This document shows positions 4,008-26,162 of a stretch of 64,000 nucleotides of DNA, piece after piece. Below the pieces are notes generated by a model. It searched no databases. It saw nothing but the letters and a program-made list of their open reading frames with translations, and had not been told where the DNA came from. How positions within the stretch are numbered: the first letter of the stretch is position 1; each line of letters begins with the position of its first letter. This DNA is from Aureimonas pseudogalii (lineage in GTDB: Bacteria > Pseudomonadota > Alphaproteobacteria > Rhizobiales > Rhizobiaceae). The stretch lies in NCBI RefSeq assembly GCF_014196835.1, contig NZ_JACIEK010000016.1, positions 1 to 64,000 on the forward strand, in the 5' to 3' direction. The translations under genes were made by a program, and so were the position numbers.

Positions 4008-5900
4008 TCAATGGGCGGGAATGCCCGCCGGCGTCTGCCGGGTCTGCGTCGCCAGCCGGATCGGCGCGTTCGCCGCGCCGAGGCCTCGGTAGCCGCGGCG
4101 CTCCACGATCTCGATGAAGAAGCCCCCGTCGAGCGCCTTCAGATAGATCTGGAAATACTCGCCGCCCTCGTCCCGGTCGTAGAGAATGCCGGTCTGGCGC
4201 ATGATCTCCAGCGTCTCGGGCGCGATGTCGAACCGGGCGTCGAGGTCGTCGTAGTAGTTCTGCGGAATGGGCAGCAGCGCCACCCCGTTCGAGGCCAGGG
4301 TGCGGACGGTCGCGAAGATGTCGAGACTGCGAAAGGCGACGTGCTGGACGCCGGGACCGACGAACTGCGAGACGAAGCGCGCCGAAAGAGTGCGCGTCGA
4401 TTGCGAGCCGTTGAGAACGATGCGCAGGCTGGCATCCTCGTTCTCCAGCACCTGGCTGAGCACGAGGCCGCCGGGATCGGGCACCTCCAGCGGCGGCAGC
4501 GGCGTGAGGTCGAAGATCGAGCGGTAGAACAGCGTCCACGACAAGATGTCCTCGAAGCGCACGGTCTGCGCGACGTGGTCGACGGCCACCAGCCCCGCAC
4601 TCCCGCTCTCGCCCCCGTTCGCCGTCAGCTCGAAATCCGCTGCCCATTGCGGGCCGAGCGCGTCTTCCTCCGGCACGAGATAAAGGAGGCTCCCGCCAAC
4701 GCCGCGGATCGTGGCGAACTCACGCTCGCCCGGTCCCACCGGCTGGCGGAAGGGCGAGGCCAGCAACCCTTGCGAACGCGCGAAGGCCTCGTCGGCATCG
4801 GCCATGCGCAGGCCGAGTGCGCAGACATTCGTGCCGTGGACCACGTAGGACGAATGCGCGAACCCCTCCGTCTCCGTGTTGATCACGACGCGCAGATCCC
4901 CTTGCGCGTAGAGTTCGACGTCCTTGGTGCGGTGGCGGCCGGCATGGTGGAAGCCGATCGCCTCCAGAAGGGTGGCGAGGGACGGGCCGGACGCGGCGTC
5001 GGTCGCGAACTCGACGAAGGAGACGCCGCTCGTGCGGGCGGGCGGGGGCAGGGGGGTCGCCTCGGACGGCCCCTTCATCGCCCGGCCCTCGGCCTTGAGG
5101 CGGTCCATGACGTAGATCAGCGACCGGCGACCGTCCACGGCGGTCTGACGCGGCGAGCCGGCGCGGAACTGGTCGTTGAAGATCTCCAGCGAATAGTAGC
5201 CGTCGTAGCCCGTCGCCTCGACGGCGGCCATGAAGTCCGACACCGGCAGGTCGCCCTGGCCGGGCATGTTGCGGTAGTGCCGGCTCCAGGACAGGAGATC
5301 GAGGTCGAGCCGGGGCGCGTCCGCGATCTGGACGATGAAGATCTTCTCGCGCGGGATGGAGCGGATCGACTGCGAATCGATGCCGCGCGACAACGAATGG
5401 AAGCTGTCGAGGATCAGGCCGATGCGGGGATGATCGGCGCGCCGCACGATCTCCCAGGCGTCGCGGTGGTCGTTGACGAAGCGGCCCCAGGCCAGCGCCT
5501 CGTAGCCGACGCGCACGTTCGCCGCTGCTGCGATCTCGCCGAGTTCGGCCAGATCCTCGGCCGCCCGGTCGATGCCGCCGAGCGCCAGCGGCGAGAGCGA
5601 AGAGCAGATGAGGATGAGATCGGTGCCGAGCTCGTTCATCGTTTCGAACTTGCGCTTCGCCCGGTCGAACGCCCGGGTGCGCTGCGGCTCCGGCAGGCCC
5701 TCGAAATCGCGGAACGGCTGGAAGAGGGAAATCTCGAGCCCGGCGTCGCGCACCATGCGCCCGACGTCCCGCGCGCTCCGGTCGGAGGCCAGGAAGTCGT
5801 TCTCGAAGATTTCCACCGCGCCGAAGCCCGCCGCGGCGATGGCCGCGAGCTTCTCGGCGAGGTCGCCCGAGATCGAGACGGTGGCGATCGAGGTCTTCAT
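4008..5900 (-). CDS. quiC: 3-dehydroshikimate dehydratase (QuiC type), TIM barrel fused to an HPPD-like domain
   Basis: The 630-residue protein converts 3-dehydroshikimate to protocatechuate. Residues about 1-280 form an AP-endonuclease-2-type TIM barrel. The residues expected to bind the divalent metal fall at Glu134 (VGYEALAWG), Asp165 (LILDSFHSL), Gln191 (IVQIADAP) and Glu239 (YYSLEIFND), the same spacing I recall for Pseudomonas QuiC1. The remainder is a vicinal-oxygen-chelate half resembling 4-hydroxyphenylpyruvate dioxygenase, with VDHVAQTV, GPGVQHVAF and GGFFIEIVERRGYRG. ATG 5900 is preceded by GGAG at seven bases. The enzyme links the hydroaromatic genes around it to the pca operon at 18953-25127. 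Confidence 0.9.
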   Translation of the reverse strand: MKTSIATVSISGDLAEKLAAIAAAGFGAVEIFENDFLASDRSARDVGRMVRDAGLEISLFQPFRDFEGLPEPQRTRAFDRAKRKFETMNELGTDLILICSSLSPLALGGIDRAAEDLAELGEIAAAANVRVGYEALAWGRFVNDHRDAWEIVRRADHPRIGLILDSFHSLSRGIDSQSIRSIPREKIFIVQIADAPRLDLDLLSWSRHYRNMPGQGDLPVSDFMAAVEATGYDGYYSLEIFNDQFRAGSPRQTAVDGRRSLIYVMDRLKAEGRAMKGPSEATPLPPPARTSGVSFVEFATDAASGPSLATLLEAIGFHHAGRHRTKDVELYAQGDLRVVINTETEGFAHSSYVVHGTNVCALGLRMADADEAFARSQGLLASPFRQPVGPGEREFATIRGVGGSLLYLVPEEDALGPQWAADFELTANGGESGSAGLVAVDHVAQTVRFEDILSWTLFYRSIFDLTPLPPLEVPDPGGLVLSQVLENEDASLRIVLNGSQSTRTLSARFVSQFVGPGVQHVAFRSLDIFATVRTLASNGVALLPIPQNYYDDLDARFDIAPETLEIMRQTGILYDRDEGGEYFQIYLKALDGGFFIEIVERRGYRGLGAANAPIRLATQTRQTPAGIPAH

Positions 5901-5964
5901 GGGCAAACTCCATCGACGAGGAGGGGTGTGATGCGGCGTGTCGCGGCGAAAGAGGCGCGCCCGC

Positions 5965-6978
5965 TCACGCGACGGCGTCCGGGTTCTTGAGGATCAGCTT
6001 GGCCTTGGCGAACCGCCCCCGGTCGATGTCCTCGAAGGCGGCGGCGCCGTCCTCCAGCGGCCGTTCCTCGATCCAGTTCAGCGGCCCCAGGCGGTTCGAC
6101 GCCAGAAGCGCGACGGTCTCGCGGAAGTCCGGCATGGAATAGCAGTAGGATCCGGCGAAGGCGATCTCGGCCAGCGTCAGGCGGCGCATGTCGACGCCCT
6201 CCGATCCCGGCATCAGGCCCATATGGACGATCGCGCCGCCGCGGCGCACCATTCGAAACGCGGCCTCGCGCGTCGCCCTCGCGCCGACGGCGTCGAAGAC
6301 GAGATCGATCGATCCCGGCGCCGGGCCGTCCGGTCCGCCGGGATCGTAGGCGCGGATCGCGGCGTTCGCGGCTCGGGCGGTGTCGCGGCGTCCGGCGTGA
6401 ACCTCGCCGAGGTGAACCACCCCCGCGCCCTGCAGCGCTGCGATCAGGGCCGTCGCGAGGCCGATCGCCCCGCCGCCCAGCACCGCGACCGCGAGGGCCG
6501 AGAGCGGGCGATGCGACAGCCGGGTTCCGATCCGCACGGCGTGATAGGCGACGGCGACCGGCTCGGCGAGGCAGGCCGCGGCGAAATCCAGCCCGTCTGG
6601 AATGGGCACGAGACTGCCGTCGGGCACCCGCACCTTGCGCGCGAAGCCGCCGCGATGGGGCGGCAGGCCGATGACGCCCTGTTCCTCGCAGAGTTGCGGC
6701 CGGCCGGAGAGACACGCGTCGCAGGTGCCGCAGGTGACGAGCGGGTTGACGGCGACGCGGGCGCCCGCCAGCGGCCCGGTCTCCACGACGCCGGCGATCT
6801 CGTGGCCCATGACGAGCGGCGGCACGCGGCGCGGATCGTCGCCGTGATAGCCGTGCAGGTCGGACCCGCAGATGCCGCAGGCGGCGACCCGGACGATCGA
6901 CGAACCGGGCTCGGCGCGGGGCTCGTCGACGTCTCGCAGCTCCAGGTGGCGCTTGCCGAGATAGACCAGTGCCTTCAT
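5965..6978 (-). CDS. Zinc-dependent medium-chain alcohol/polyol dehydrogenase
   Basis: This 337-residue MDR protein has the catalytic zinc motif AACGICGSDLHGYHG and GHEIAG. The structural zinc cysteines are in CGTCDACLSGRPQLC, and the NAD(P)-binding segment is AVLGGGAIGLATAL. It belongs to the threonine/sorbitol dehydrogenase-like group that oxidises secondary alcohols of polyols or hydroxy acids. The gene lies between the GntR-family regulator and quiC on the same strand, 64 bases upstream of quiC. Oxidation of a hydroxylated ring or side-chain substrate in this island is therefore plausible. It is one of several candidates for the missing quinate/shikimate dehydrogenase step, but that assignment is an inference. 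Confidence 0.85.
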   Translation of the reverse strand: MKALVYLGKRHLELRDVDEPRAEPGSSIVRVAACGICGSDLHGYHGDDPRRVPPLVMGHEIAGVVETGPLAGARVAVNPLVTCGTCDACLSGRPQLCEEQGVIGLPPHRGGFARKVRVPDGSLVPIPDGLDFAAACLAEPVAVAYHAVRIGTRLSHRPLSALAVAVLGGGAIGLATALIAALQGAGVVHLGEVHAGRRDTARAANAAIRAYDPGGPDGPAPGSIDLVFDAVGARATREAAFRMVRRGGAIVHMGLMPGSEGVDMRRLTLAEIAFAGSYCYSMPDFRETVALLASNRLGPLNWIEERPLEDGAAAFEDIDRGRFAKAKLILKNPDAVA

Positions 6979-7075: not shown

Positions 7076-7783
7076 CTATTCCGGGAGCGGCCCGATATGG
7101 TCGAAGCGCAGGCCGCGGGTCGTTCGTCCGGGCGCGGGTGGAGCGAGGGCGAAGCCGTAACGCTCGGCCATCTTCACGATATGGGTTCCCAGCTCTTCCA
7201 TCGCGCCGGCGAGATCCCCCGTCTCCAGCCGGCCGATGATGACGTAATGCTCCTCGTTCGCCTGCTCGCGCGTCGGCAGGGCCGAGCGATGGGCGCGCAG
7301 CGCGGCGACCTTGCCGCTGATCAGCCGGTAGGCGTTGACGAGGTAGGGGTTGCCGCAATGGTCGATCGCCGCCTCGTGAAATTCCGTATCGGCGCTGGCG
7401 CTGCGCATCATGTCGCCCGAGGCCAGCGCGTCGCGGATGCTGTCGGCGGCCAGACGCATCGCGGCGATGGTCTGCGCGCCGCTGCGCTCCATCGCGAGGC
7501 GCAGGGCGTCGAGTTCGATCATGCGGCGAAACTCGCAGATGTTCTCGGTGTCCTCGGGGGTCGGCAGGAACACGAAACTGCCGCGCTGCGGGCGGATGTC
7601 GATCAGCCCCTGCTGTTCCAGCGCCGCGAAGGCCTCGCGCACCGGGCTTCGGCTGACGCCCAGCGTGCTCGCCAGCTTGTCTTCCGACAGCGCGTCCCCG
7701 AGTTCGAATTCGCCGTCGAGGATCGCGCGGCGCAGACGCTCGGCCACCCGCAGCCCCAGGGAACCCCGTTGTCTCGAACTCAA
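7076..7783 (-). CDS. GntR-family transcriptional regulator, FCD (FadR) subfamily
   Basis: The 235-residue protein has an N-terminal winged helix (LGLRVAERLRRAILDGEF, then KLASTLGVSRSPVREAF), which is the classic GntR signature. An all-helical FCD ligand domain follows, with residues such as DTEFHEAAIDHCGN and EHYVIIGRL. The start codon is TTG, supported by a strong AAGGAGG nine bases upstream. It sits inside a minus-strand gene series running from the SDR (9502) to quiC (4008), and FCD regulators generally sense organic acids made or consumed by the neighbouring enzymes. Confidence 0.88.
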   Translation of the reverse strand: MSSRQRGSLGLRVAERLRRAILDGEFELGDALSEDKLASTLGVSRSPVREAFAALEQQGLIDIRPQRGSFVFLPTPEDTENICEFRRMIELDALRLAMERSGAQTIAAMRLAADSIRDALASGDMMRSASADTEFHEAAIDHCGNPYLVNAYRLISGKVAALRAHRSALPTREQANEEHYVIIGRLETGDLAGAMEELGTHIVKMAERYGFALAPPAPGRTTRGLRFDHIGPLPE

Positions 7784-7905: not shown

Positions 7906-8754
7906 TCAACATCGACCGCTCGCGGCGCCGCCGCCGCCTGACCTCGGCGCATCGAGAAACCGCCGCGTCGCCGCCATGGCCTTTTCGGCGCGCGCCCCGA
8001 AGCTCAGCGCGGCGTCGCCCGCATGGGGCGTTTCCACGCTGATCGTGATGTCGGGCCCAAGAACCGACATCAGCTCATCGAGCCACAGCCCGCCTTCGCC
8101 CGGCATCAGGCGCCCGCCGCGCGCTTCCGCGATGCAGGCGGCGTCGCTTGCCGGCGGCTCGGCCGGCGCGTCGCAGAGCTGGAGATAGAGCACCCGGTCG
8201 CGGTCCAGCGTCCGGACGTCGTCCGGCCGGCCGCCGGAACGCGACAGGTGCAGCGCATCGATGAGGATGCCGACATTCGAGCGGCCGGCGGCCTCCACGA
8301 GCCGCTTGGCGTCGGCGAGCGTCGACATGGCGCGCCAGCGCGTCAGCTCGATGGCCAGGGTGACGGCATAGCCGGCGGCGACGTCGGCGATGCCGGCGAG
8401 CCGGTCCGCCGCGCGGGCGAGGTCCGCGTCGTCGCTGGTGATCTGCATCATCGGCATGCCGAGTTCGGCCGCCGTCTCGATCGCCGGCGCCCAGTGCCGG
8501 ACGTCGGTGTCCGGCAGAAGGGTCAGAAGCTCGGCGTCGAACAGCGAGATGCCCTCGTTCGCGGTGGCGGCCTTGATCCGGCGGATCAGCGCGGCGTCGC
8601 CGAGGATGGGATGCGCGAGATCCACCCCGTTGGGCGCCACGAGGCGAAGGCTCGTGGCGTCGTATCCGGCGGCGGCGGCGACGCGGATCTGTTCCTCGGG
8701 CGGGCAGCCCTGGACGGTCAGGTAGGCGAGCGACAGGCGATGGGCGCGGTGCAT
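7906..8754 (-). CDS. Sugar phosphate isomerase/epimerase-like TIM-barrel protein
   Basis: The 282-residue protein is an AP-endonuclease-2-type TIM barrel. Recognisable elements are RVAAAAGYDATSLRL, EGISLFDAE, AIELTRW, GILIDALHLSRSG, YLQLCDAP and RLMPGEGGLW. It is clearly a paralogue of the protein at 14873-15700, sharing the APNG, EGIS.FD, DALH.SR, Q.CDAP and L.PGEGG blocks. Its acidic residues and DALH motif suggest a metal-dependent isomerase, epimerase or dehydratase acting on a keto acid or sugar-like compound. It lies eight bases downstream of the SDR gene on the same strand. The reaction is unknown. Confidence 0.8.
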   Translation of the reverse strand: MHRAHRLSLAYLTVQGCPPEEQIRVAAAAGYDATSLRLVAPNGVDLAHPILGDAALIRRIKAATANEGISLFDAELLTLLPDTDVRHWAPAIETAAELGMPMMQITSDDADLARAADRLAGIADVAAGYAVTLAIELTRWRAMSTLADAKRLVEAAGRSNVGILIDALHLSRSGGRPDDVRTLDRDRVLYLQLCDAPAEPPASDAACIAEARGGRLMPGEGGLWLDELMSVLGPDITISVETPHAGDAALSFGARAEKAMAATRRFLDAPRSGGGGAASGRC

Positions 8755-8761: not shown

Positions 8762-9502
8762 TCAATAGGTCGCGCGTCCGCCGGACACGTCGAACACGGC
8801 CCCGGTCGAGAACGAGCATTCCTCCGACGCCAGCCAGGCGACGAGCGAGGCGACCTCCGAGGCCTTGCCGAGGCGACCGACCGGGATCTTGGCGGTGACG
8901 AAGGCGCGGAACTCGGGCGTCAGCTGGTTCAGCATCTCCGTCTCGATCGCGGCGGGCGCGACGCAGTTCACCCGGATCTCGGTGTTCGCCAGCTCCCGGC
9001 CGACCGATTTCGTCAGGCCGATCACCCCGGCCTTCGACGCCGAATAGGCGACGGCATTGGGGTTGCCCTCCTTGCCGGCGATCGAGGCGATGTTGACGAT
9101 GCGCCCGTAGCCCGTCTTCAGCATCTCGCGCACGCCGGCCTGGCAGCAGTGGAAGACCGCGTCGAGATTGAGCGCCATCACGAAGCGCCAGCCCTCGAAG
9201 GGATAGCTGGCGAAGGCTTCCACCGGCCCGTTGTGGCCGGCGCTGTTGACGAGGATGCCGAGCGGGCCGAACTCCTGGACGACCTCCGTCATCGCCGCGT
9301 CGACCGAGGCGCGGTCGGTGACGTCGACGCCGTAGCCGCGGGCCCGCGGCAGTCGGGCGGCGGCGTCGCGCGCGCGCGCGGCGTCGAGATCCCAGATCGC
9401 CACGGTGTGGCCCTGCGCCGCCAGTCGCTCGGCGATGGGGAACCCCAGACCACCGGCGCCTCCCGTGACGATGGCCACGCGCGCCTGTTCCGGTGTCGTC
9501 AT
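8762..9502 (-). CDS. Short-chain dehydrogenase/reductase (FabG-like)
   Basis: A classical 246-residue SDR: cofactor motif VTGGAGGLGFPIAE, adenine-ring aspartate segment YGVDVTD, NSAGHNG, active-site YSASKAG with the catalytic Tyr and Lys, and a C-terminal GAVFDVSGGRATY. ATG 9502 is preceded by GGGAGGA at about seven bases, and the longer upstream frame lacks support. It oxidises a secondary hydroxyl with NAD(P) and is the first gene of the minus-strand series containing the TIM barrel, GntR regulator, MDR dehydrogenase and quiC. Its substrate is probably an intermediate of the same pathway. Confidence 0.87.
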   Translation of the reverse strand: MTTPEQARVAIVTGGAGGLGFPIAERLAAQGHTVAIWDLDAARARDAAARLPRARGYGVDVTDRASVDAAMTEVVQEFGPLGILVNSAGHNGPVEAFASYPFEGWRFVMALNLDAVFHCCQAGVREMLKTGYGRIVNIASIAGKEGNPNAVAYSASKAGVIGLTKSVGRELANTEIRVNCVAPAAIETEMLNQLTPEFRAFVTAKIPVGRLGKASEVASLVAWLASEECSFSTGAVFDVSGGRATY

Positions 9503-9654: not shown

Positions 9655-10383
9655 TTGGGACTGAAGGGATCCGCGTTTCTGGCCATCTGGCACGACATCG
9701 CTGCAGGGGCGCATGGCGACTATGTCGAATGGCACACGCGCGAGCACATGCCCGAACGGCTCTCCATTCCCGGCTTTCGAACCGGCAAGCGCCTGCATGC
9801 GCCCGGCTCCGCGCGCCATGTGTTCGGCACGATCTATGCCGGCGACGGCGTCGATGTCTTCCAGTCCCCCGCCTATCTCGCACGCCTGAACGACCCCACC
9901 GCCTGGACCACCGCGGTCGCGCCGAGCTTCCGGAACTTCCTGCGCGTCGCCTGCGAGCGCATCGCCTTTGCCGGGCGAGGGGACGGCGGCAGCATGGCGA
10001 CCCTTCGCTTCGACTTTTCCGGCGCCGAGCCGGAGGCGAGACTGCGGGCCGCGGCGTCCACGCTGGTTCGCGACGTGCTGGCGTTCCCTTCCGTCTGCTC
10101 GGTGCATCTGGGCGTCGCCCGCGCCAAGGTCTCCGGCGTCCGCACGCGCGAGACGGAGCTGCGCGAGGCCATGTCCGAGCGGGGCTTCGACGTGGTGCTT
10201 CTCGTGGAGGGCAGCGCCCGTCCCGGTCTGGAGGCGGCGATGCCGGGCATCTTCGAGCTCTGCGCGGCGACGGGCGCCCTCGGTGTTCCCGTCGCCGCGA
10301 TCTACGAGACCGCCTACACGCTGACGGCGCAGGACATGGAAGCGCCCGACACGGCAGCATCCGGCATGGGGGCGCAGGGATGA
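9655..10383 (+). CDS. DUF4286/EthD-like dimeric alpha-beta barrel protein
   Basis: The 242-residue protein has an N-terminal ferredoxin-like barrel segment, AIWHDIAAGAHGDYVEWH followed by REHMPERLSIPGF. The NWH.REH.PER..vpGF form is characteristic of DUF4286/EthD-like proteins found in aromatic and ring-compound catabolic clusters. The start is TTG, chosen because GGAGAG lies seven bases upstream and the conserved barrel begins about ten residues later. Its stop overlaps the next gene's ATG by four bases, so the two are translationally coupled. The role is unknown; tautomerase-like, monooxygenase-like or accessory functions are possible. Confidence 0.65.
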   Translation: MGLKGSAFLAIWHDIAAGAHGDYVEWHTREHMPERLSIPGFRTGKRLHAPGSARHVFGTIYAGDGVDVFQSPAYLARLNDPTAWTTAVAPSFRNFLRVACERIAFAGRGDGGSMATLRFDFSGAEPEARLRAAASTLVRDVLAFPSVCSVHLGVARAKVSGVRTRETELREAMSERGFDVVLLVEGSARPGLEAAMPGIFELCAATGALGVPVAAIYETAYTLTAQDMEAPDTAASGMGAQG

Positions 10384-11285
10384 CGCGCATCCTCGTCACC
10401 GGCGGCGGCGGTTTTCTCGGCGGCTGGATCTCCAAGCTGCTCATCGAGGGCGGGCACGAGGTCCGCATCTTCGACCGCGGAAGCGAGCGCCGCGTGGTGC
10501 GGGAGGTCGTGGGCGGGGCGGCGGACGATCTGGACTGGGTCGAGGGCGACGTCATGGACGGCGCGGCTGTGACGCACGCGGCGGAGGGATGCGCTGCGAT
10601 CGTCCATCTGGCCGCGCTTCTGACGCCGGCCTGCGCCGCCGACCCGGTGCGGGGCGCCGAGGTCAACCTGATCGGCACGCTGAACGTCTTCGAGGCCGCG
10701 AAGGCGCGGGGCATCCGGCGCATCGCCTATGCGAGCAGCGCCGCCGTGTTCGGTCCCGACGACGGCGAGCATCCCCGGCCGGTGACGATGTACGGCGCCT
10801 TCAAGCTCGCAGGCGAGGGCTGCGCGCGTGCCTACTGGCACGATGCGGGGATCGCCAGCGTCGGGCTGCGCCCCACGGTGGTCTACGGGCCGGGCCGCGA
10901 GATCGGGTTGACGGCCGGGCCGACGCTGGCCTGCCGCGAGGCGGTGGCGGGGCGCCCCTACGTCATCGGCTATACAGGGCGTCAGGATCTCGTCTTCGCC
11001 GGCGACGTCGCCGCCGCCTTCGCGGCCGCCGCTACGCGGAACCTGGAGGGCGCGCATGCCGTGTCGCTCGGCGGAAGCGTCGTGGACGTGCCCGACATCG
11101 TCGCCGCGATCGAGGCCGAGGTGCCGGGCGCCGTCATCGGCTTCGAGGGCCCGGCCGTTCCCATGGCGTCGAACATCGCAGGGGCGGGCGATGCGACGAT
11201 CCTCGGCCTCGCGCCGCGAACCACGCTGCGCGATGGCATCGCGCGGACGGTGGCGCATTATCGCCGCGTGGCGGGGGAGGCCTGA
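10380..11285 (+). CDS. NAD-dependent epimerase/dehydratase
   Basis: The 301-residue extended SDR begins with the NAD motif ILVTGGGGFLGGWI. The active-site region is IAYASSAAVFG and, farther on, MYGAFKLAGEG with the YxxxK pair. Other extended-SDR elements are LRPTVVYGPGREIG and DLVFAGDVAAAF. The ATG overlaps the upstream stop (ATGA). Together with the DUF4286-like protein it forms a two-gene operon divergent from the SDR gene. Members of this group oxidise or epimerise sugars and sugar acids. The substrate here is not determinable, although a ring polyol is plausible from context. Confidence 0.82.
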   Translation: MTRILVTGGGGFLGGWISKLLIEGGHEVRIFDRGSERRVVREVVGGAADDLDWVEGDVMDGAAVTHAAEGCAAIVHLAALLTPACAADPVRGAEVNLIGTLNVFEAAKARGIRRIAYASSAAVFGPDDGEHPRPVTMYGAFKLAGEGCARAYWHDAGIASVGLRPTVVYGPGREIGLTAGPTLACREAVAGRPYVIGYTGRQDLVFAGDVAAAFAAAATRNLEGAHAVSLGGSVVDVPDIVAAIEAEVPGAVIGFEGPAVPMASNIAGAGDATILGLAPRTTLRDGIARTVAHYRRVAGEA

Positions 11286-11345: not shown

Positions 11346-12008
11346 CTAGGGCGCGAGGTAGCGCAGGATCATTTCCGTCATCGTTTCCAGACGTTTCTCG
11401 ACGGCCGCGTCGGCGAGGAGGTCTCGCCCGAAGAGGATCTTCAGCGTGTGGCGGTTGGACACGTAGGTGAAGCCGAGCGCGGAGATCGAGATGTAGAGGT
11501 CGAGCGCATCGACGTCGGCGCGAAATGTGCCGGAGGCGACGCCCCGAGCCAGGATGGCCTCGACCTTGGCGAGCACGGGGCGGTTCAGCCCGGACATGTC
11601 GCCGGCGGTGCGCAGATGCGAGGCGCCGTGCAGGTTCTCGGTGTTGATCATCCGCACGAAGGCGGGATGGTCGATGTAGTAGCGGAAGGTGAAGGCGACG
11701 AGGGTGGCGATCGCGCCGCAGGGGTCGTCGAGGTCGAGGTCCAGCCGGTCCTCGGCGTCGCGGATGCCGGCGTAGATGTCCTGCAGAGCGGCGCGGTAGA
11801 GATCCTCCTTGCTGTCGAAATAGTGGTAGACCATCGCCTTGTTGCTGCTCGCCCGGGCCGCGATCCGGTCCACCCGCGCGCCGCCGATGCCGTAGGTGGA
11901 GAATTCGAGAATGGCGGAGTCGAGCAGCGCCCGGCGACGTCGCAGCGGCGCACGCTCGCCCGCGTCGGGCCCGATGCCGATCCGGTTCTCGTCGTCGACC
12001 CGCGCCAT
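11346..12008 (-). CDS. TetR-family transcriptional repressor
   Basis: The 220-residue protein has a TetR helix-turn-helix near residues 40-65 (GGARVDRIAARASSNKAMVY, then HYFDSKEDLYRAAL) and a ligand-binding all-helical remainder containing a TetR_C-like FRYYIDHPAFVRMIN. ATG 12008 has GAGGGA about eight bases upstream; longer upstream codons lack a ribosome binding site. It is divergent from the binding-protein gene of an ABC importer. The perfect 16-base palindrome between them lies in the importer promoter spacer, so this protein probably represses the whole 12216-18836 catabolic operon until an inducer binds. Confidence 0.88.
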   Translation of the reverse strand: MARVDDENRIGIGPDAGERAPLRRRRALLDSAILEFSTYGIGGARVDRIAARASSNKAMVYHYFDSKEDLYRAALQDIYAGIRDAEDRLDLDLDDPCGAIATLVAFTFRYYIDHPAFVRMINTENLHGASHLRTAGDMSGLNRPVLAKVEAILARGVASGTFRADVDALDLYISISALGFTYVSNRHTLKILFGRDLLADAAVEKRLETMTEMILRYLAP

Positions 12009-12215: not shown

Positions 12216-13046
12216 ATGTTCAAGGTTTCATTGTCGCGCGTCGCGGCGCTCGCGCTCGTCGCAGGTCTCGGCTTCGCCGGCACCGTCTCGAACGCGGCGG
12301 CGCAGACGCTGGAGAAGATCAAGGAAGCCGGCGTCATGCGCGTCGGCGTCATGGGCGAGCAGGCGCCCTGGGGCTCGATCGACGCGAGCGGGCAGAACAT
12401 CGGCTACGACGTTGACGTCGCCCAGCTGATGGCCAAGGAGCTCGGCGTGAAGGTCGAGTTCGTGGCGAACGCCGTCGCCGCCCGCATCCCGAACCTTCTG
12501 ACCAACAAGGTCGACGTTCAGATGGCGGTGATGGGCATGTATCCCGACCGCGCCAAGGTCGTGCAGTTCTCCAAGCCCTATGCCGGCCTGAAGATCATTC
12601 TCCTGTCCAGCGCCAAGAACAAGATCGAGACGATCGAGGACGCGCGAAACCTGCGCATCGGCGTGCCGCGCGGCGCCGCGCAGGACAAGGCGATCACCGC
12701 GCTTCTCGGCGACTCCCCGAACATCCGGCGCTTCGACGACGACAGCTCCAACATCCAGGCGCTGGTCTCCGGCCAGGTCGACGCGATCGGCGGAAATACG
12801 ACCTACAAGATCAATCTCGACCGCGCCGCGCCCGGCAACGACTTCGAGCAGAAGCTGGTCTTCAACGAGCAGTGGATGGGCGCCACGACCCGGCCGGGCG
12901 ATGCCGAGATGAACGGCTGGCTCAACGCCTTCATCGACAAGATCAAGGCGAACGGCGAACTGCAGAAGATCAGCGAGAAGTGGCTGGACGCGCCGCTCCC
13001 GACCTTCCCCGAGAGCCTCGAAGGCGTGCCGTTCGCCGCCAAGTGA
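12216..13046 (+). CDS. Polar amino-acid-type ABC transporter substrate-binding protein
   Basis: The 276-residue periplasmic protein has a signal peptide (LSRVAALALVAGLGFAG, cleavage near NAAAQ). It then follows the SBP_bac_3 pattern: VMRVGVMGEQAPWGSID, YDVDVAQLMAKELGVKVEF, IPNLLTNKVDVQMAVMGM, and a C-terminal LNAFIDKIKANGELQKISEKW. The start is preceded by GGGAGGA. Its cognate permeases and ATPase are encoded at 16601-18836 after four enzyme genes, so the ligand is probably the substrate of those enzymes, a hydroaromatic or sugar-like acid rather than an ordinary amino acid. That ligand assignment is inference. Confidence 0.88.
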   Translation: MFKVSLSRVAALALVAGLGFAGTVSNAAAQTLEKIKEAGVMRVGVMGEQAPWGSIDASGQNIGYDVDVAQLMAKELGVKVEFVANAVAARIPNLLTNKVDVQMAVMGMYPDRAKVVQFSKPYAGLKIILLSSAKNKIETIEDARNLRIGVPRGAAQDKAITALLGDSPNIRRFDDDSSNIQALVSGQVDAIGGNTTYKINLDRAAPGNDFEQKLVFNEQWMGATTRPGDAEMNGWLNAFIDKIKANGELQKISEKWLDAPLPTFPESLEGVPFAAK

Positions 13047-18056: not shown

Positions 18057-18836
18057 ATGACGCAGATGCCAACCACGGATCGCGCGACGCCCGGCGCCGC
18101 CGGACCGATGATCGAGATGCGGCAGGTCGAGAAATACTACGGCGCCTTCCATGCGCTGAAGTCGATCGACCTCACCGTCACCAAGGGCGAGAAGATCGTG
18201 CTGTGTGGCCCGTCGGGGTCGGGCAAGTCGACGCTCATCCGCTGCATCAACCATCTCGAGACCATCAAGAGCGGCGAGATCGTCGTGGCGGGCCACCGGC
18301 TGAACGACAGCCAGAAGGCCGTGGACGCGGTGCGCCAGACGGTCGGCATGGTGTTCCAGCAGTTCAACCTGTTTCCGCACCGCACGGTTCTGGAAAACTG
18401 CATCCTGGCGCCGATGCGCGTGCGCAAGTTGTCGCGCGCGGACGCCGAGGCGACGGCGCGCAAGTACCTGGAGCGGGTGCGGATCGGCGATCAGGCGAAC
18501 AAGTATCCGGCGCAGCTCTCGGGCGGCCAGCAGCAGCGCGTCGCCATCGCCCGCGCCCTGTGCATGGAGCCCAAGGCCATGCTCTTCGACGAGCCGACCT
18601 CCGCCCTCGACCCCGAGATGGTGAAGGAGGTGCTCGACACCATGGTGTCGCTCGCCCAGGACGGCATGACGATGATCTGCGTCACCCACGAGATGGGCTT
18701 CGCCCATCAGGTCGCCGATCGCGTGATCTTCATGGCCGATGGCCGCATTCTCGAAGAGAACGTTCCCTCGATCTTTTTCAAGTCGCCGCAGCACGAGCGC
18801 ACTCGCGCGTTCCTCGGCGAGATCCTGCATCACTGA
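18057..18836 (+). CDS. Polar amino-acid-type ABC transporter ATP-binding protein
   Basis: The 259-residue ATPase has a Walker A ([12 protein letters not shown]), a Q-loop ([11 protein letters not shown]), the signature [15 protein letters not shown], a Walker B ([14 protein letters not shown]) and a switch His ([10 protein letters not shown]). It is closest in pattern to GlnQ/HisP proteins. GGGAGAA precedes ATG 18057. It completes the importer that begins with the binding protein at 12216, and the operon ends here, converging on pcaB. Confidence 0.92.
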
Positions 18837-18952: not shown

Positions 18953-19992
18953 TCAGGCGGGGCAGCCGATCACCGCGCCGTCGAGAAGGGCGGCGGCGTG
19001 CCGAAGCGCCGCGCCCACCGCCTCCGCCATGGGGGGCAGCACCATCCATTCGAGCGTCCAGGCCGCCCCCGAGCGCTCGTTCTCGTGGATCATGGACTGG
19101 TGGAGCGTGCCCATCATTCCGGCGTTGAAGCGGGCGAGCGCCACGAGCACCTCGGCGCCGACCGGATTCTGCTTGTGCGCCATGGCGGACGAGCCGCCGC
19201 TTCCCGTGAGCGTCACGGTGCCGATCCCCGTCTGTGCCATCAGCGCCAGGTCCTGGCCGAGCTTGCCGAGCGTTCCCGTGACGAGCGCAAGGGCCTGCGC
19301 GACGTCGAGGATGCGCGTGCGGTCGGACTGCCAGGGTTCGGCGTCGGCAAGGCCGAGATGCCGTGCGAGCGCCGCGCGCACCGCGCCGGCCTTGCCGCCG
19401 AAGCTCGACCCGTCGCCGATCGGCCCGCCCAGCTGGATCGCGAGGCCCTCTCGCAGCGCCGCGAGCCGGGCCGCATGCCCATCGAGCGGCGACGCCCACG
19501 TCCGCAGCTTGGCGGCGACCGTGAAGGGGAGGGCGGCCTGCATGCGCGTCTGCGCCATCAGCGCATGGTCGCCTTGATCGGCCGACATCTCGTCGAGGCG
19601 CGCGCGGAGGCCCGCCAGACGCGCCTCGACGAGCGGGATCAGCGTCGCCAGTCTCAGCATCAGGGCGGTGTCGATCGCATCCTGGCTGGTGGCACCCAGA
19701 TGAACCCTGGCGCGGTGCGGCTCGTCCACGGCCTCGCGCAGCTGCCGCACCAGATCGGGCACGACGACGCCGTCGCGCGCGAGACCGGCCGCGAGAGCGG
19801 CGAGATCGGGACGGAAGCTCGCCAGCGCCGTCGCGATCGCCGCCGCCGCGTCCCTCTCGATCAGGCCGGCCTCCGCCTCGGCATCTGCGAGGGCGATCTC
19901 GAAGCGCACGAGCGCCTCGATCTCGGCCTGCGGCGCGAACAGTGCGGCGATCTCGGCGTCGCCGGCGAGCGAGGACAGAAGCGGCATCCCGA

Positions 19993-19996
<4 letters not shown>
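18953..19996 (-). CDS. pcaB: 3-carboxy-cis,cis-muconate cycloisomerase
   Basis: The 347-residue member of the fumarase/argininosuccinate lyase superfamily carries the signature GGSSAMAHKQNPVGAEVL and the upstream HLGATSQDAIDTAL. It converts 3-carboxy-cis,cis-muconate into 4-carboxymuconolactone. It is the last gene of the pca operon. The GTG at 19996 overlaps the pcaF stop (GTGA) and has GGAG at five bases; an in-frame ATG lies at 19987. The protein is somewhat short for the family because the C-terminal domain is reduced, as in several rhizobial PcaB proteins. Confidence 0.87.
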
Positions 19997-21195
<1,199 letters not shown>

Positions 21196-21196
21196 C

Positions 21197-21868
21197 TCAA
21201 AGCTCCGGAACGAGGAGATCGGCGACGGGACCGGGAACGAGGAGTTCGGCGCCCGTCACGGCTTGCAACTCTTCGACCGACAGGGACGGCAGCTTCTCGC
21301 GCAGCACGAAGCGACCGCCCTCGATGTCGATCACCGCAAGGCTCGTATAGACCCGGGTGACGCAGGCGACGCCCGTCAGCGGCAGCGAGCAGCGCTTCAC
21401 GAGCTTGGGGCGGCCCTCCTTGGTCACGTGGTCGGTGATGACGGCGACGCGCTTGGCGCCGTGGACGAGGTCCATCGCGCCGCCCACCGCCGGAACGCCC
21501 TTCGGCCCCGTCGACCAGTTGGCGAGATCGCCGGTCTCGGCCACCTCGTAGGCGCCGAGGATCGCGACATCGAGATGGCCGCCGCGCACCATGGCGAAAC
21601 TGTCGGCGTGGTGGAAGAAGGCGGTGCCGGGCTTCAGCGTGACGGCCTTCTTGCCGGCGTTGATGAGGTCCCAGTCTTCCTCGCCCAAAGCCGGTGCCTC
21701 GCCGAAGCCGAGGATGCCGTTCTCGGTGTGGAAGATCGCCTGCCGACCCGGTGGCTGGAAGCGCGCGACCATCTCGGGGAAGCCGATGCCGAGGTTCACG
21801 TAGGCGCCGTCGGCGATGTCCTGCGCGGCGCGCCAGGCGATCTGGGTGGCGGAAAGCTTGGCGCTCAT
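21197..21868 (-). CDS. pcaJ: 3-oxoadipate CoA-transferase, beta subunit
   Basis: The 223-residue subunit contains YVNLGIGFPEMVA and the catalytic glutamate region HTENGILGFGEAP of class I CoA-transferases. It ends with the FxVREKLPSLSVEELQAVTGA segment common to PcaJ. With PcaI it transfers CoA from succinyl-CoA to 3-oxoadipate. Its ATG overlaps the pcaI stop by four bases. Confidence 0.92.
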   Translation of the reverse strand: MSAKLSATQIAWRAAQDIADGAYVNLGIGFPEMVARFQPPGRQAIFHTENGILGFGEAPALGEEDWDLINAGKKAVTLKPGTAFFHHADSFAMVRGGHLDVAILGAYEVAETGDLANWSTGPKGVPAVGGAMDLVHGAKRVAVITDHVTKEGRPKLVKRCSLPLTGVACVTRVYTSLAVIDIEGGRFVLREKLPSLSVEELQAVTGAELLVPGPVADLLVPEL

Positions 21869-22599
21869 GCGGCCCTCGGAGGATAGACGGCGTTGGCGCG
21901 GTTGAGGTCTTCTTCTTGAGCTGGGTTCGCCACCTCGACGAGCCCCTGCACGAAGATGCCGGGCGTGACGACCGCTTCCGGATCGAGGACGCCGGGTTCG
22001 ACGATCTCGGTCACCTGGACGATCGTGGTCGCCGCGGCCATGGCCATCAGCGGATTGAAGTTGCGCGCCGCCTTGTTGAAGACGAGGTTGCCGAGGGTGT
22101 CGCCGCGATGGGCCTTGACCAGCGCGACGTCGGCCTTCAGCCAGAGTTCGCGCACGTAAGGGCGGCCGTCGAACGCCTCCACCGGCTTGCCCTTGGCGAG
22201 GTCGGTGCCGAAGCTCGTCGGCGTGTAGAAGGCCGGGATGCCGGCACCGCCGGCCCGGATGCGCTCGGCCAGCGTGCCCTGCGGCACCAGCTCCAGCTCG
22301 ATCTCGCCCTTGAGATAGCGCTCGGTGAAGACGCGCGGATCGGCCGAGCGCGGGAAGGAGCAGACGAGCTTGCGCACCATGCCCTGCTCGATCAGCGCCG
22401 CGAGCCCGACATGGCCGTTGCCCGCGTTGTTGTTGACGACGGTGAGGTCCTTGGGCGAGCCGGTCGCGACGAAGCGGTCGATCAGCGCGTGGATCAGCTC
22501 GATCGGCGCGCCGGAGCCGCCGAAGCCGCCGATCATCACGGTCATGCCGTCCCGAATGCCGGATACCGCCTCGGCGAGGCTGGAGATCGTCTTGTCCAT
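21865..22599 (-). CDS. pcaI: 3-oxoadipate CoA-transferase, alpha subunit
   Basis: The 244-residue subunit begins with a conserved MIGGFGGSGAPIELIHAL glycine-rich loop and contains NNNAGNGHVGLAAL and PAFYTPTSFGTDLAKG, all typical of PcaI. It is translationally coupled to pcaJ and follows pcaG by seven bases. Substrate specificity for 3-oxoadipate is inferred from the operon. Confidence 0.92.
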   Translation of the reverse strand: MDKTISSLAEAVSGIRDGMTVMIGGFGGSGAPIELIHALIDRFVATGSPKDLTVVNNNAGNGHVGLAALIEQGMVRKLVCSFPRSADPRVFTERYLKGEIELELVPQGTLAERIRAGGAGIPAFYTPTSFGTDLAKGKPVEAFDGRPYVRELWLKADVALVKAHRGDTLGNLVFNKAARNFNPLMAMAAATTIVQVTEIVEPGVLDPEAVVTPGIFVQGLVEVANPAQEEDLNRANAVYPPRAA

Positions 22600-22606: not shown

Positions 22607-23230
22607 TCACATATCCAGAAAGACGGTTTCGTCGTCGCCCTGCAGCCGGATGTCGAACCGGAAGACGGGGAGCCCGTCGCGCTCGCTCCGCCGGGCGATC
22701 AGCGTTCGGCGCCGGTGCGGCTCGGGAATGCGCAGGAGCAGCGGGTCCGCCTCGTTCGCCGCCTCGTCCTCGAAATAGACGCGGGTGTGGAGCCCGATAT
22801 TGATGCCGCGCGCCACGATCCAGACGCTGATGTGCGGCGCCTGCATCCGGCCGTCGGGATAGGGCACTCGGCCCGGGCGGATCGTCTCGAAGCGGTACGA
22901 GCCGTCGGTCTCGGACACGGGCTGGCGGCCCCAACCGGCAAAGGCGGGGTCGGCGGCGCCGCGCGTCTCGGCCGGCGAATTGTGGAGCCCTTGGGCGTCG
23001 GCCTGCCAGATCTCGACCAGCGCGTCGCGCACCGGCGAGCCGGCGCCGTCGATCAGCGTGCCTTCCAGCAGGATCCGCTCGCCCTTCGTCTCCGGCCCGA
23101 CCAGCACGAGGCCGAGATCGGCCTTCCAGACGCCGGTGATCTCGACCCAGTTGGGATTGGTGCCGATATGGACGTAAGGGCCCGCCGTCTGCGAGGCCGA
23201 TTCCTTCAGGTAGTCGAGGTGCTGGACCAT
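22607..23230 (-). CDS. pcaG: Protocatechuate 3,4-dioxygenase, alpha subunit
   Basis: The 207-residue intradiol dioxygenase subunit shows TAGPYVHIG near the start, GAGSPVRDALVEIWQADAQG in the dioxygenase core, and PHISVWIVARGINIGLHTR. The alpha subunit lacks the full iron ligand set supplied by PcaH. The ATG at 23230 shares a base with the pcaH TGA (TGATG), so it is coupled. The longer TTG-initiated form would add a single residue. Confidence 0.92.
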   Translation of the reverse strand: MVQHLDYLKESASQTAGPYVHIGTNPNWVEITGVWKADLGLVLVGPETKGERILLEGTLIDGAGSPVRDALVEIWQADAQGLHNSPAETRGAADPAFAGWGRQPVSETDGSYRFETIRPGRVPYPDGRMQAPHISVWIVARGINIGLHTRVYFEDEAANEADPLLLRIPEPHRRRTLIARRSERDGLPVFRFDIRLQGDDETVFLDM

Positions 23231-23952
23231 CAATTGCCCTCCATCCGGTTCTCGAACGGGGTCGAGCGGCGGCCGCGAAGCACGATGTCGAACTTGTAGG
23301 CGAGCGAGTCCATCGGGATCGTCGCGTTGCGGTCGAGCGCGGCGACGAGTTGCTCGATCGCCGCCCTATCGGGGATCGTCTTCACGATCGGGCACTGCCA
23401 GATCATCGGGTCGCCCTCGAAATACATCTGGGTGATCAGGCGCTGCGCGAAGGCATGGCCGAAGATCGAGAAGTGGATATGCGCCGGCCGCCAGTCGTTG
23501 ACGCCGTTCGGCCAGGGGTAGGCGCCCGGCTTCACCGTGCGAAAGGCGTAGCGCCCGTCCTCGTCCGTGATGCAGCGCCCGCAGCCGCCGAAATTGGGAT
23601 CGAGCGCGGCGAGATAGCTCTCCTTCTTGTGGCGGTAGCGGCCGCCGGCATTGGCCTGCCAGAACTCGACGAGGGCGCCCGGCACCGGGCGCGCCGCCTC
23701 GTCCAGCACCCGGCCGTAGACGACGATGCGCTGGCCGATCGCCTCCGTGCCGTCTTGGGAGAAGTTGCGGATGAGGTCGGCGTCGAGGGGGCCGAGAACG
23801 TCGTGCCCGAACACCGGACCGGTTTCCTCGGAGGCGGTGGTGGGAAGCGACAGGAGCGCGTTCTTCGGCGCCCGGAGGATGGAGGTCTTGTAGCTCGGCG
23901 TCAGCGCCGGCGGGTGCCATTGCCGATCGCGCTGAAAATAGGAACCGCTCAT
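23230..23952 (-). CDS. pcaH: Protocatechuate 3,4-dioxygenase, beta subunit
   Basis: The 240-residue catalytic subunit opens protocatechuate between C3 and C4. The iron ligands are visible as the Tyr of [10 protein letters not shown], the Tyr of [10 protein letters not shown], and the two His of [32 protein letters not shown] and [13 protein letters not shown] are further PcaH elements. The start overlaps the pcaDC stop by four bases. Confidence 0.94.
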
Positions 23953-25127
23953 CGCGCCGCCTCCCCCTTCATCTGAGCCAAGGTCGCCTTGGCGATCTTG
24001 ATGGCATGATTGGCCGCCGGCACGCCCGCATAGACCGCGACATGCATCAGCGCCTCCGCGATGTCGGCCGGGCTCGCCCCGGTTCGCACGGTCGCCCGCA
24101 CGTGCATCGCCACCTCCTCGTCCTGCCCGAGCGCCGCGAGCAGCGCGATCGTGACGATCGAGCGCTCGCGCCGCGTGAAGTGATCGCCCGACCAGACCGT
24201 GCCCCAGGCGCCTTCGGTGATGAAGCGCTGGAAGGCGCGGTCGAAATCGGTGATCGCGGCGCCCGCGCGCTCGACATGGGCCTCGCCCAGAACCTCGCGG
24301 CGAACCGCCATGCCCGCGTCGTATCGCGCCGCCGGTGCCGCCATGGCGCCCGCGACATGCGCCGCGACGAGCTCGGCGACCTCAGTCGGGCGATCGATGC
24401 AGGGCAGGTGCCCCGCGCCGGCGATCTCCGCGAAACGGCCGCCGACGATGCCCTCCGCCGTTCGGCGCACGAGATCGGGCGGCGTCGACAGATCCTCCGA
24501 TCCCGCGATCACCAGCGTCGGCGCGCGGATGGCCGGCAGCTCGGGCGTCAGATCGGCGTCGCGCAGGGCCGCACAGGTGCCGACATAGCCGGCGACGGAG
24601 GTGCGTTCCAGCATGGTGCGCCAGCCGGCGACGGTGGCAGGCTCGCTCGAACGGAAGGCGGCGCCGAACCAGCGCTCGACGATCGCCCCTCCGATGGCGC
24701 CGAGGCCGCCACCTTCTACCGCGGCAATGCGATCGTTCCAGCTCTCGCGGGTTCCGATCCGGGCCGCCGTGTCCATTAGGACGAGAGCCTCGACGCGCTC
24801 GGGATGGCGCGCGGCGAAGGCCTGCGCGATCAGCCCTCCGACCGAGAGCCCCACCGGCACGACGCGCGTCCAGCCGAGCGCGTCCAGAAGCCCGCAAAGA
24901 TCCGCCAGATGACGCTCGATCGAGTAGGGGGCCGGCGTCGCCTCGCTCAGGCCGTGGCCGCGCAGGTCGTAGAAGAGAAGCTCGTGCGAGGCTCGCAGGC
25001 GCTCGGCAACCGCGTCCCAGATCCGCAGATCGCTGCCGAGCGAATTCAGGAACACCAGCCGCGGCCGCCCCGGCGTGCCGTGCATGCGATAGTGGAGGAC
25101 GATCCCGTTGACGGAATGGAAGGGCAT
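23949..25127 (-). CDS. pcaDC: Fused 3-oxoadipate enol-lactonase and 4-carboxymuconolactone decarboxylase
   Basis: The 392-residue fusion has an alpha/beta-hydrolase half (residues about 1-260; nucleophile in [14 protein letters not shown], catalytic His in [11 protein letters not shown]) that hydrolyses 3-oxoadipate enol-lactone. The C-terminal carboxymuconolactone decarboxylase half (about 275-392) contains [17 protein letters not shown] and [14 protein letters not shown] packing. Separate pcaD and pcaC genes are absent, so this one gene supplies both consecutive steps. It leads the pca operon, downstream of the PcaQ-type site at 25213-25228. Confidence 0.93.
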
Positions 25128-25228: not shown

Positions 25229-25232
25229 ACGA

Positions 25233-26162
25233 ATGCTGCCCAACGGGATCCGGATGCGCCATCTCACCACGTTCGTGGAGGTGGCTCGACTGAAAAGCTT
25301 CGTGAAGGCGGCGGACCTGCTGGCGGTGACGCAGCCCGCGGTCTCCAAGACGGTACGCGAGCTCGAGGACCTCCTGGGCTCTCCCCTCATCGACCGTTCG
25401 CGCCGCGCGGTCGCGCTGACGCCCGACGGCGAGATCTTCCTGCGCCATGCCGAGGCGAGCCTCGTGTCGCTGCGGCGCGGCGTCGGCGCGCTTCTCGACG
25501 CACGGCTTCCGCAGGCGCCTCCGCTGCGGATCGGCGCGCTGCCCACCGTCTCCGCCCGCCTGCTGCCGCCCGTGCTCCGCGCCTTCATGGCGGCTAGGCT
25601 CGGCGCGGTGCCGCGCATCGTCACCGGGCCGAACGCTTACCTCCTCTCGCAGCTGCGGCGCGGCGATCTCGACATCGTCCTCGGGCGCATGGGCGACACC
25701 GCGGAGATGGCCGACTTCGCCTTCGAGCGGCTCTATTCCGAGCGGATCGCCTTCGTGGTGCGCCCGGACCACCCGTTGCGCCGCAAGACGCCGCTGGATC
25801 TCGCGGGGATCGGCGCCTACGAGGCGCTGATGCCGCCGCCGGGGTCGGCGATCCGGCCGGTGGTGGACCAACTCGTGCTCGCGCTGGGGCTGGCCCGGCC
25901 GCAGGCGGTGCTGGAAACCGTGTCGCCTTCCTTCGGCCGGGCCTATGTGCGAAGCAGCGATGCGATCTGGGTGATTTCCGAAGGCGTCGTGGAGCAGGAC
26001 ATCGCCGATGGCATTCTCGCGATCCTGCCGGTGGACACGTCGCTGACGCTCGGGCCCGTGGGCATCACGATGCGACCGGATCGATCGGTGGATCTCGCCA
26101 GCGAGACCTTCCTCGCAGAGCTGCGAACCGCCTCATCCCGGCTTCGCGGCGACGGCGACTGA
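25233..26162 (+). CDS. pcaQ: LysR-family activator of the pca operon
   Basis: The 309-residue LysR protein has the HTH RHLTTFVEVARLKSFVKAAD, then LAVTQPAVSKTVRELEDLLG, near the N-terminus. A LysR substrate-binding domain follows, including LGRMGDTAEMADFAFERLY and ERIAFVVRPDHPL, both PcaQ-like. The effector of PcaQ proteins is 3-carboxymuconate or carboxymuconolactone. It is transcribed divergently from pcaDC across the operator at 25213-25228. The ATG at 25233 gives the usual distance to the HTH; the ATG at 25254 would shorten the N-terminus. Confidence 0.9.
   Translation: MLPNGIRMRHLTTFVEVARLKSFVKAADLLAVTQPAVSKTVRELEDLLGSPLIDRSRRAVALTPDGEIFLRHAEASLVSLRRGVGALLDARLPQAPPLRIGALPTVSARLLPPVLRAFMAARLGAVPRIVTGPNAYLLSQLRRGDLDIVLGRMGDTAEMADFAFERLYSERIAFVVRPDHPLRRKTPLDLAGIGAYEALMPPPGSAIRPVVDQLVLALGLARPQAVLETVSPSFGRAYVRSSDAIWVISEGVVEQDIADGILAILPVDTSLTLGPVGITMRPDRSVDLASETFLAELRTASSRLRGDGD

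Follow-up and report, generated by a model that had tools for sequence, protein, structure and literature searches.

The window analysed here, a stretch of 64,000 nt comprising bases 1-64000 of contig 16 of the 5.0 Mb genome of Aureimonas pseudogalii, carries an island of genes predicted to take hydroaromatic acids such as quinate and shikimate to the tricarboxylic acid (TCA) cycle. It encodes a QuiC-type 3-dehydroshikimate dehydratase, a type II 3-dehydroquinate dehydratase (AroQ) that is the second of the genome (the other is at C6:25244), and all the enzymes of the pca branch (pcaHGBDCIJF, by Pfam and NCBIfam), as had been proposed in an earlier reading made from the letters alone (hereafter, the sequence-only reading). 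The central observation of that reading, an island in which no recognised quinate or shikimate dehydrogenase is encoded locally, was confirmed, and its interpretation was partly supported. The gene it put forward as the leading candidate for the absent activity encodes a Gfo/Idh/MocA oxidoreductase (13815-14876, hereafter Gfo), the TTG start of which overlaps the stop codon of aroQ. This TTGA overlap is there as described, and ATGA overlaps join Gfo to the next gene (TIM1) and TIM1 to an aldo-keto reductase (AKR) gene, giving a run of four genes that overlap at all three joints; translational coupling as such is presumed. The start of Gfo is supported because its homologues in the alignment mostly begin at, or a few residues from, the same place. 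Conserved linkage supports the conclusion that Gfo belongs to this pathway neighbourhood and is not a bystander. Genes were mapped with a codon-score gene caller and with Pfam and NCBIfam scans, which were mutually consistent; positions are those of the window.

691..2397, minus strand: FAD_binding_2 flavoprotein (PF00890, 251 bits; 58% to FAD2 of locus L029)
3120..3950, plus strand: IclR-family regulator, BhcR/PcaR-like (NF045644, 110 bits, below cut-off)
4008..5900, minus strand: QuiC-type 3-dehydroshikimate dehydratase, TIM barrel plus HPPD-like domain (residues 1-621 align with PDB 5hmq, E 1.8e-176; residues 3-622 score 664.9 bits with NF042435, below the cut-off of 1200)
5965..6978, minus strand: zinc-type medium-chain dehydrogenase (MDR; PF08240, PF00107; no equivalog cut-off reached)
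7076..7747, minus strand: GntR/FCD regulator (PF00392, PF07729, scanned on the longer frame 7076-7783)
7906..8754, minus strand: TIM2, single-domain QuiC-like TIM barrel (PF01261; QuiC-aligned site residues)
8762..9502, minus strand: short-chain dehydrogenase (SDR), candidate quinate/shikimate dehydrogenase (PF13561; locus counts)
9748..10383, plus strand: conserved 211-residue protein overlapping the next gene (in 17/88 loci including the window)
10380..11285, plus strand: NAD-dependent epimerase/dehydratase family protein (PF01370, 125 bits)
11346..12008, minus strand: divergent TetR regulator (PF00440, PF17938)
12216..13046, plus strand: periplasmic solute-binding protein, SBP_bac_3 (PF00497)
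13384..13818, plus strand: AroQ, type II 3-dehydroquinate dehydratase (PF01220, 187.1 versus 23.3 bits; TIGR01088, 175.2 bits, over the type II dehydroquinase cut-off of 169.85)
13815..14876, plus strand: Gfo/Idh/MocA oxidoreductase, TTG start overlapping the aroQ stop (PF01408, 85 versus 24 bits; PF22725, 82.3 versus 27)
14873..15700, plus strand: TIM1, single-domain QuiC-like TIM barrel, ATGA overlap (PF01261)
15697..16524, plus strand: AKR, DkgB-like, ATGA overlap (NF008377, 228 bits, below cut-off)
16601..17263, plus strand: ATP-binding cassette (ABC) permease (PF00528)
17274..17918, plus strand: ABC permease (PF00528)
18057..18836, plus strand: ABC ATPase, polar amino acid type (PF00005)
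18953..19987, minus strand: pcaB (NF004631, over cut-off)
19993..21195, minus strand: pcaF (TIGR02430, over cut-off)
21197..21868, minus strand: pcaJ (TIGR02428, over cut-off)
21865..22599, minus strand: pcaI (TIGR02429, over cut-off)
22607..23230, minus strand: pcaG (PF00775)
23230..23952, minus strand: pcaH (PF00775, PF12391)
23949..25127, minus strand: fused pcaD-pcaC (PF00561 and PF02627)
25233..26162, plus strand: pcaQ (TIGR02424, over cut-off)

To our knowledge, the entry dehydrogenases for quinate and shikimate are of the AroE type or dependent on pyrroloquinoline quinone (PQQ), and both families were sought by six-frame searches of the whole genome, the window included. The matches to Shikimate_dh_N (PF08501) and to TIGR03074, the PQQ glucose/quinate/shikimate dehydrogenase family, all lie elsewhere, and the window is thus without an AroE- or QuiA-family gene, as claimed. 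A single PF08501 protein is encoded, on C2, and no second one, that is, no AroE paralogue, was found in the six frames of the genome. The NCBIfam model that it matches best, with a score above the cut-off, is that of shikimate dehydrogenase (biosynthetic type), and it scores 100.7 bits with NF010631 (cut-off 515) and 92.4 bits with NF009390 (cut-off 349), two models for AroE-family quinate/shikimate dehydrogenases, enzymes that include Corynebacterium QsuD and E. coli YdiB. Like the systems of that family, the island would provide an NAD(P) route through 3-dehydroquinate and 3-dehydroshikimate to protocatechuate, and it has a two-domain dehydratase of the QuiC/QsuB type; unlike them, it has no AroE-like gene in the window, and the only AroE of the genome is far below both cut-offs.

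The PQQ family is less simply set aside, since two TIGR03074 proteins exceed the cut-off of 832.65 bits, one on C1 (1091.8) and one on C10 (900.6). They were placed in a FastTree tree rooted at the midpoint, with E. coli Gcd, a Klebsiella enzyme near pcaHG and an Acinetobacter enzyme located ~4 kb downstream of a pca operon as references; the latter two are presumed to be QuiA from their pca linkage. The C1 enzyme groups with Gcd, and the C10 enzyme falls in a third group that is neither Gcd nor pca-linked, such that no protein of the genome groups in this tree with the two QuiA-type references, as defined by pca linkage. The residue aligned with E. coli His262 is His in the C1 enzyme, Trp in both pca-linked references, and Gly in the C10 enzyme as well as in the four relatives compared with it. 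The pca-linked branch holds one further enzyme (L108, from an Acinetobacter plasmid, without pca neighbours), and this has His. The plain statement that the genome is without a quinate dehydrogenase was therefore weakened by the two TIGR03074 proteins and partly restored by the grouping in the tree. The genome seems to be without a clear QuiA, and the C10 enzyme remains a candidate; the genome-wide search for quiA, aroE/ydiB and qsuD that the sequence-only reading had proposed thus bears it out for AroE, and with that reservation for QuiA.

Relatives of Gfo were collected by scanning one genome of each species with a pattern, which returned 110, and the best 80 of these, together with seven plasmid loci and the window, constitute the 88 loci counted below; adding five hand-picked plasmid loci (L109-L113) gives 93. 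The identity limits were 32% for AroE-like proteins, 45% for aroQ and quiC and 50% for the SDR subfamily in the counts over 88 loci and over the 19 of the window's own Gfo clade, and >30% in those over 93. Two loci come from one genome in two cases (L016 and L057; L080 and L081), and absences are uncertain at several loci because contig ends cut them. Within 10.5 kb of Gfo, aroQ is present at 45 of the 88 loci, quiC at 57 and one or the other at 76; an AroE-like gene is near at 53 and the SDR subfamily at 22, the two together at only 2. The raw counts are inflated by 30 loci of a single arrangement (type C, below), all with AroE-like and quiC genes, which is partly corrected by taking 37 representatives of <80% identity: aroQ or quiC is near Gfo in 28 of these, an AroE-like gene in 18, SDR in 11, and AroE-like plus SDR in one. 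On the same strand and within 300 bp, aroQ, an AroE-like gene or quiC occurs at 77/93 loci (aroQ itself at 32/93), a figure that rises to 83/93 within 10.5 kb. The 12 plasmid relatives that were opened, at 43-56% identity, include 10 with one of these three genes within 10.5 kb, in differing arrangements. The genome itself has 23 Gfo-family genes, and only that at 13815 is near aroQ, quiC or aroE. Across 121 genomes of the order, the Gfo clade was found in 24 and a QuiC-type protein in 30 (0/30 reaching the NF042435 cut-off), with both in 14 where 6 were expected (Fisher p 8e-5, kinship ignored); without the window's genome, both occur in 13/23, against 5.6 expected (p 2e-4).

Mapping the 25 genes of the window onto the scanned loci distinguished several arrangements. 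Type A is window-like; the closest named relative by Gfo protein, Aureimonas sp. ME7 (79% identity, L015), has an identical gene order. Type B, found in Rhizobium and its relatives, has quiC facing a run of genes for a solute-binding protein, AroQ, two permeases, an ATPase, an AroE-like protein and Gfo, with pca genes next in some loci. Type C comprises 30 loci, nearly all named Bradyrhizobium, with AroE-like and quiC genes in 30/30; an example, L059, has LysR, AroE-like and branched-chain type ABC genes, Gfo and quiC. A Halomonas locus (L054) reads quiC, AroE-like, aroQ, Gfo. The AroE-like proteins of L036, L048, L054 and L059 match Shikimate_dh_N over cut-off. As the general rule, the proposal that Gfo simply replaces AroE is rejected, and substitution as the sequence-only reading put it is unsupported, since more than half of these loci have an AroE-like gene near Gfo.

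The Gfo protein is distinct within its family. Residues K92, K153, Y157, W162, R163, N174, H177, D180, R183, R201, W270, W279 and more are conserved in 87 or more of the 88 proteins, and so dense a set is in keeping with a single reaction, not an assortment of them; the conserved clade, usually found beside catabolic AroQ, AroE-like and QuiC proteins, is probably isofunctional. It shares with IolG inositol dehydrogenases and WlbA-type 3-dehydrogenases the Gfo/Idh/MocA fold, the EKP motif and a conserved His, but stands apart as a clade, with invariant residues and neighbouring genes of its own, and the IolG inositol 2-dehydrogenase model (TIGR04380) gives 147.4 bits, well short of its cut-off of 355. 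The predicted structure (pLDDT 87) has the usual fold of the family. Foldseek ranked WlbA and glucuronide 3-dehydrogenase first and cis-4,5-dihydrodiol phthalate dehydrogenase (7x1x, 7x2y) twentieth, whereas VIA-align placed 1,5-anhydrofructose reductase on top, with the WlbA, glucuronide and phthalate-diol enzymes within ~2 Z units. The fold neighbours thus include both uronate-type 3-dehydrogenases and a dehydrogenase of a carboxylated ring diol, although the latter is 24% identical to Gfo and serves a different pathway.

Taken with its gene company, we tentatively read Gfo as an NAD(P)-dependent hydroaromatic dehydrogenase that would most likely convert quinate to 3-dehydroquinate, an assignment a little short of evenly balanced. 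Quinate- or shikimate-type acids would be taken up by the SBP_bac_3 ABC importer, and a cytoplasmic Gfo would oxidise the ring C3 hydroxyl. Its adjacency to and overlap with the dehydroquinase gene make 3-dehydroquinate its most natural product, which would then pass to a translationally coupled AroQ to yield 3-dehydroshikimate. QuiC, possibly with TIM1 and TIM2 as paralogues, would form protocatechuate from this, and PcaHG and the remainder of the pca branch would deliver it to the TCA cycle. With 3-dehydroquinate as the Gfo product, the frequent AroE-like partner is best read as a shikimate dehydrogenase; in the window's genome the candidates for that role would be the SDR (8762) and the lone AroE working in reverse. 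The parts of this proposal differ in strength: that the clade belongs to hydroaromatic acid catabolism is very probable, whereas quinate oxidation as the main reaction of the whole clade is possible but distinctly less secure.

Several findings weigh against quinate oxidation by Gfo. The AroE-like gene at 53/88 loci could already perform the C3 oxidation, and in the other clade-bearing genomes (a check that covered 50 of the 80 scanned loci) at least two Shikimate_dh_N proteins are encoded in 49/50 and a TIGR03074 protein over cut-off in 33/50. Gfo is therefore rarely the sole candidate and is mostly a partner, not a stand-in, and the window's genome is unusual in encoding a single Shikimate_dh_N protein. 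None of aroQ, AroE-like and quiC genes is within 10.5 kb of Gfo at 10/93 loci (L030, L031, L033, L040, L041, L046, L053, L084, L094 and L098, with L033 and L040 cut close by contig ends); the neighbours in some Rhodospirillales metagenome-assembled genomes are acyl-CoA dehydrogenases (L030, L033) and dihydroorotate dehydrogenase (L041), and the plasmid loci L094 and L098 showed none of the three by tblastn, L098 having an annotated shikimate dehydrogenase at its extreme edge. In the order sample, 10/24 clade-bearing genomes have no QuiC. Loci L111, L112 and L113 combine other gene company (described next) with the lack of quiC within 8 kb, which points to other substrates. Sugar and inositol dehydrogenases have the fold too, with Z scores as high or higher, so the fold cannot by itself choose the substrate. 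Finally, Neurospora crassa uses quinate without qutH, the fungal Gfo-family gene considered below (PMC12610400).

Loci L111 (1-9026) and L113 (4059-9503) each have an AroE-aroQ-Gfo group with ketopantoate reductase-like, VOC, MaoC and CoA-transferase genes, and in L112 (1-9038) the same group lies with hpaH and CHM-isomerase-type genes. These groups perhaps serve a different ring-acid pathway.

The SDR at 8762-9502 could be the cluster's quinate/shikimate dehydrogenase, in place of an AroE-like gene, with Gfo performing another step common to the clusters; we consider this rather unlikely, although the counts are attractive. In the window's own Gfo clade an SDR gene is near in 18 of the 19 loci (all but L024) and an AroE-like gene in one (L022), and the scarcity of loci with both among the 88 goes the same way. 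The subfamily also recurs near Gfo, at 50-65% identity, in L040, L053, L075 and L093, and a model for cis-4-hydroxycyclohexanecarboxylate dehydrogenase is among its NCBIfam matches, albeit below cut-off. However, when independent pairs were taken from the Gfo tree (7 altogether, 5 of them on supported branches), the apparent alternation of SDR with AroE-like genes was not supported (median p 1), and on this ground the proposal that SDR replaces AroE was not kept. In addition, the top-scoring model of the SDR is the generic FabG, a Paraburkholderia locus (L093) has SDR and AroE-like genes together, and the SDR gene is on the opposite strand, 3.9 kb from aroQ. The SDR is nonetheless a serious candidate for the second activity because of its presence in nearly all loci of the window's clade; the sequence-only reading had ranked it below Gfo.

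A similarly modest likelihood attaches to Gfo acting on some other hydroaromatic compound, whether a stereoisomer, a deoxy or dihydro form, a regioisomeric keto by-product or a ring diol, and feeding it into the pool of 3-dehydroquinate and 3-dehydroshikimate; Gfo, with TIM1, AKR, the epimerase-like protein and the FAD protein, would then broaden the substrate range. The presence of AroE-like genes beside the clade and of the phthalate-diol enzyme among the fold neighbours are in keeping with this, as are the FAD_binding_2 relatives within 10.5 kb of Gfo at 16/88 loci and the NIPSNAP genes at 8/88, both also seen at a QuiC stretch without Gfo (L105). Fungi offer a parallel. Their qut quinate dehydrogenase is presumably of AroE type, and the usual company of the bacterial Gfo clade (dehydroquinase, dehydroshikimate dehydratase and often an AroE-type dehydrogenase) is similar to that of qutH, a gene given as a member of the fungal quinate gene set in a 1992 reference. 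A 2025 study (PMC12610400) describes the Aspergillus niger orthologue of qutH, itself an uncharacterised quinate-cluster gene of A. nidulans, as carrying Gfo/Idh/MocA domains, 6-fold up on quinate and 245-fold up in the repressor mutant, and sets it beside quinate dehydrogenase, dehydroquinate dehydratase and dehydroshikimate dehydratase; its authors propose a non-essential redox role, because Neurospora is without the gene. Unlike the bacterial island, the qut set is fungal and has its own quinate dehydrogenase, and the likeness of QutH to Gfo is one of family name. With this parallel, hydroaromatic oxidation of an accessory or alternative kind becomes a reasonable competitor of quinate oxidation itself, yet the adjacency to and overlap with the dehydroquinase gene favour 3-dehydroquinate as the product, and no specific alternative substrate is indicated.

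Somewhat less likely again is a quinate dehydrogenase role for the PQQ enzyme at C10:11027, which would oxidise its substrate in the periplasm as in Acinetobacter and leave the ABC importer to take up the keto acid. In the Acinetobacter pca-qui operon, the PQQ quinate dehydrogenase QuiA takes part in a periplasmic conversion to protocatechuate (PMC4213383). The island is like that system in that dehydroquinate dehydratase, dehydroshikimate dehydratase and the pca branch would carry quinate to the TCA cycle. It differs in that an ABC importer is encoded together with Gfo and SDR, and nothing in the genome groups with the QuiA-type references. For the C10 enzyme speak its TIGR03074 score, a PqqE encoded on the same contig, and a homologue (P0176, 62% identity) named quinate dehydrogenase by its source. 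On the other side, many homologues bear the name glucose dehydrogenase in their source records, the enzyme lies outside both the Gcd and the pca-linked groups, and its Gly at the His262 position is not the Trp of the pca-linked pair (the His of L108 on their branch qualifies this); its neighbours encode an SDR, a cupin, an MFS transporter and LysR, and no qui or pca gene was seen among them. Named relatives of the C10 enzyme (stretch L003, C10:9527-14866) come from Methylobacterium, Asaia, Pseudomonas and Xanthomonas, among others.

That there is no dedicated dehydrogenase, with AroE reversed on shikimate or with 3-dehydroquinate or 3-dehydroshikimate imported and Gfo part of a linked but unrelated sugar acid pathway, is very unlikely, as a chance neighbour would not be expected to be linked to aroQ, aroE and quiC in as many different arrangements as the Gfo clade is, even though two S. 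meliloti plasmid QuiC regions have no local dehydrogenase of the kinds searched. Those two were among five plasmid QuiC regions opened from the 60 records, of 478, that were given; in both, a tblastn search over 8 kb gave no match of the AroE-like, QuiA-like or Gfo-clade kind. Of the other three, two have AroE-like genes and one, from Chelatococcus, has a two-piece AroE-like match (tblastn). The window is therefore not alone in having quiC but no recognised dehydrogenase nearby, which qualifies its oddity. On the Chelatococcus plasmid (L103), the two-piece match, at ~3.8-4.6 kb, is unannotated and upstream of a run of tripartite ATP-independent periplasmic (TRAP) transporter genes, aroQ and quiC. 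On an S. meliloti plasmid (L104, 3164-9890), aroQ, a TRAP transporter and a class III aminotransferase gene face quiC, and the substrate of this cluster is possibly an amino-hydroaromatic.

The remaining genes of the island bear on its extent and on the dehydratase step. The content of 4008..26162 is as the sequence-only reading gave it, but the island is larger, as relatives of the FAD_binding_2 (691-2397) and IclR (3120-3950) genes recur at some Gfo-clade loci: at L093 and L098 they join NIPSNAP, TIM-barrel and AroE-like genes, and they are also found at the Paracoccus QuiC locus L105, where no Gfo is present in the stretch opened. The 211-residue protein (9748-10383), which had zero Pfam or NCBIfam matches, has relatives of 61-74% identity at 16/87 further Gfo loci, mostly with an epimerase-family gene close by. 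TIM1 and TIM2 keep the residues aligned with E134, D165, H168, Q191, R207, R210 and E239 of QuiC. Hydroxypyruvate isomerases carry similar motifs, and the notion that TIM1 and TIM2 are proven dehydroshikimate dehydratases was dropped, the aligned residues being compatible with that activity and not diagnostic of it. In the window's clade, quiC is absent within 10.5 kb at 12/19 loci, most of which have a TIM1/TIM2-type barrel.

Gfo, then, retains its place in the pathway neighbourhood, with the SDR and the C10 PQQ enzyme still in contention for the dehydrogenase role. The frame of the pathway is already known, and what appears to be new is that, on comparative evidence, a specific Gfo clade is a usual member of hydroaromatic acid catabolism, here in a genome whose recognised entry enzymes are missing or doubtful; a literature search, with most subscription journals outside it, found no report of a bacterial Gfo-type quinate dehydrogenase. 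It is conceivable, though doubtful, that beside the AroE and PQQ types, to which it is unrelated, the clade is a new, third kind of dehydrogenase for quinate or hydroaromatic acids, one that passes 3-dehydroquinate to the adjoining type II dehydroquinase in many Proteobacteria and has a fungal counterpart in QutH. Quinate and shikimate are abundant plant acids, and, if the proposal is true, the Gfo clade would be a missing piece in the annotation of their pathway across the Alpha-, Beta- and Gammaproteobacteria. Since fungi too have a Gfo/Idh/MocA protein among their quinate genes, the same set of assays could inform both cases.

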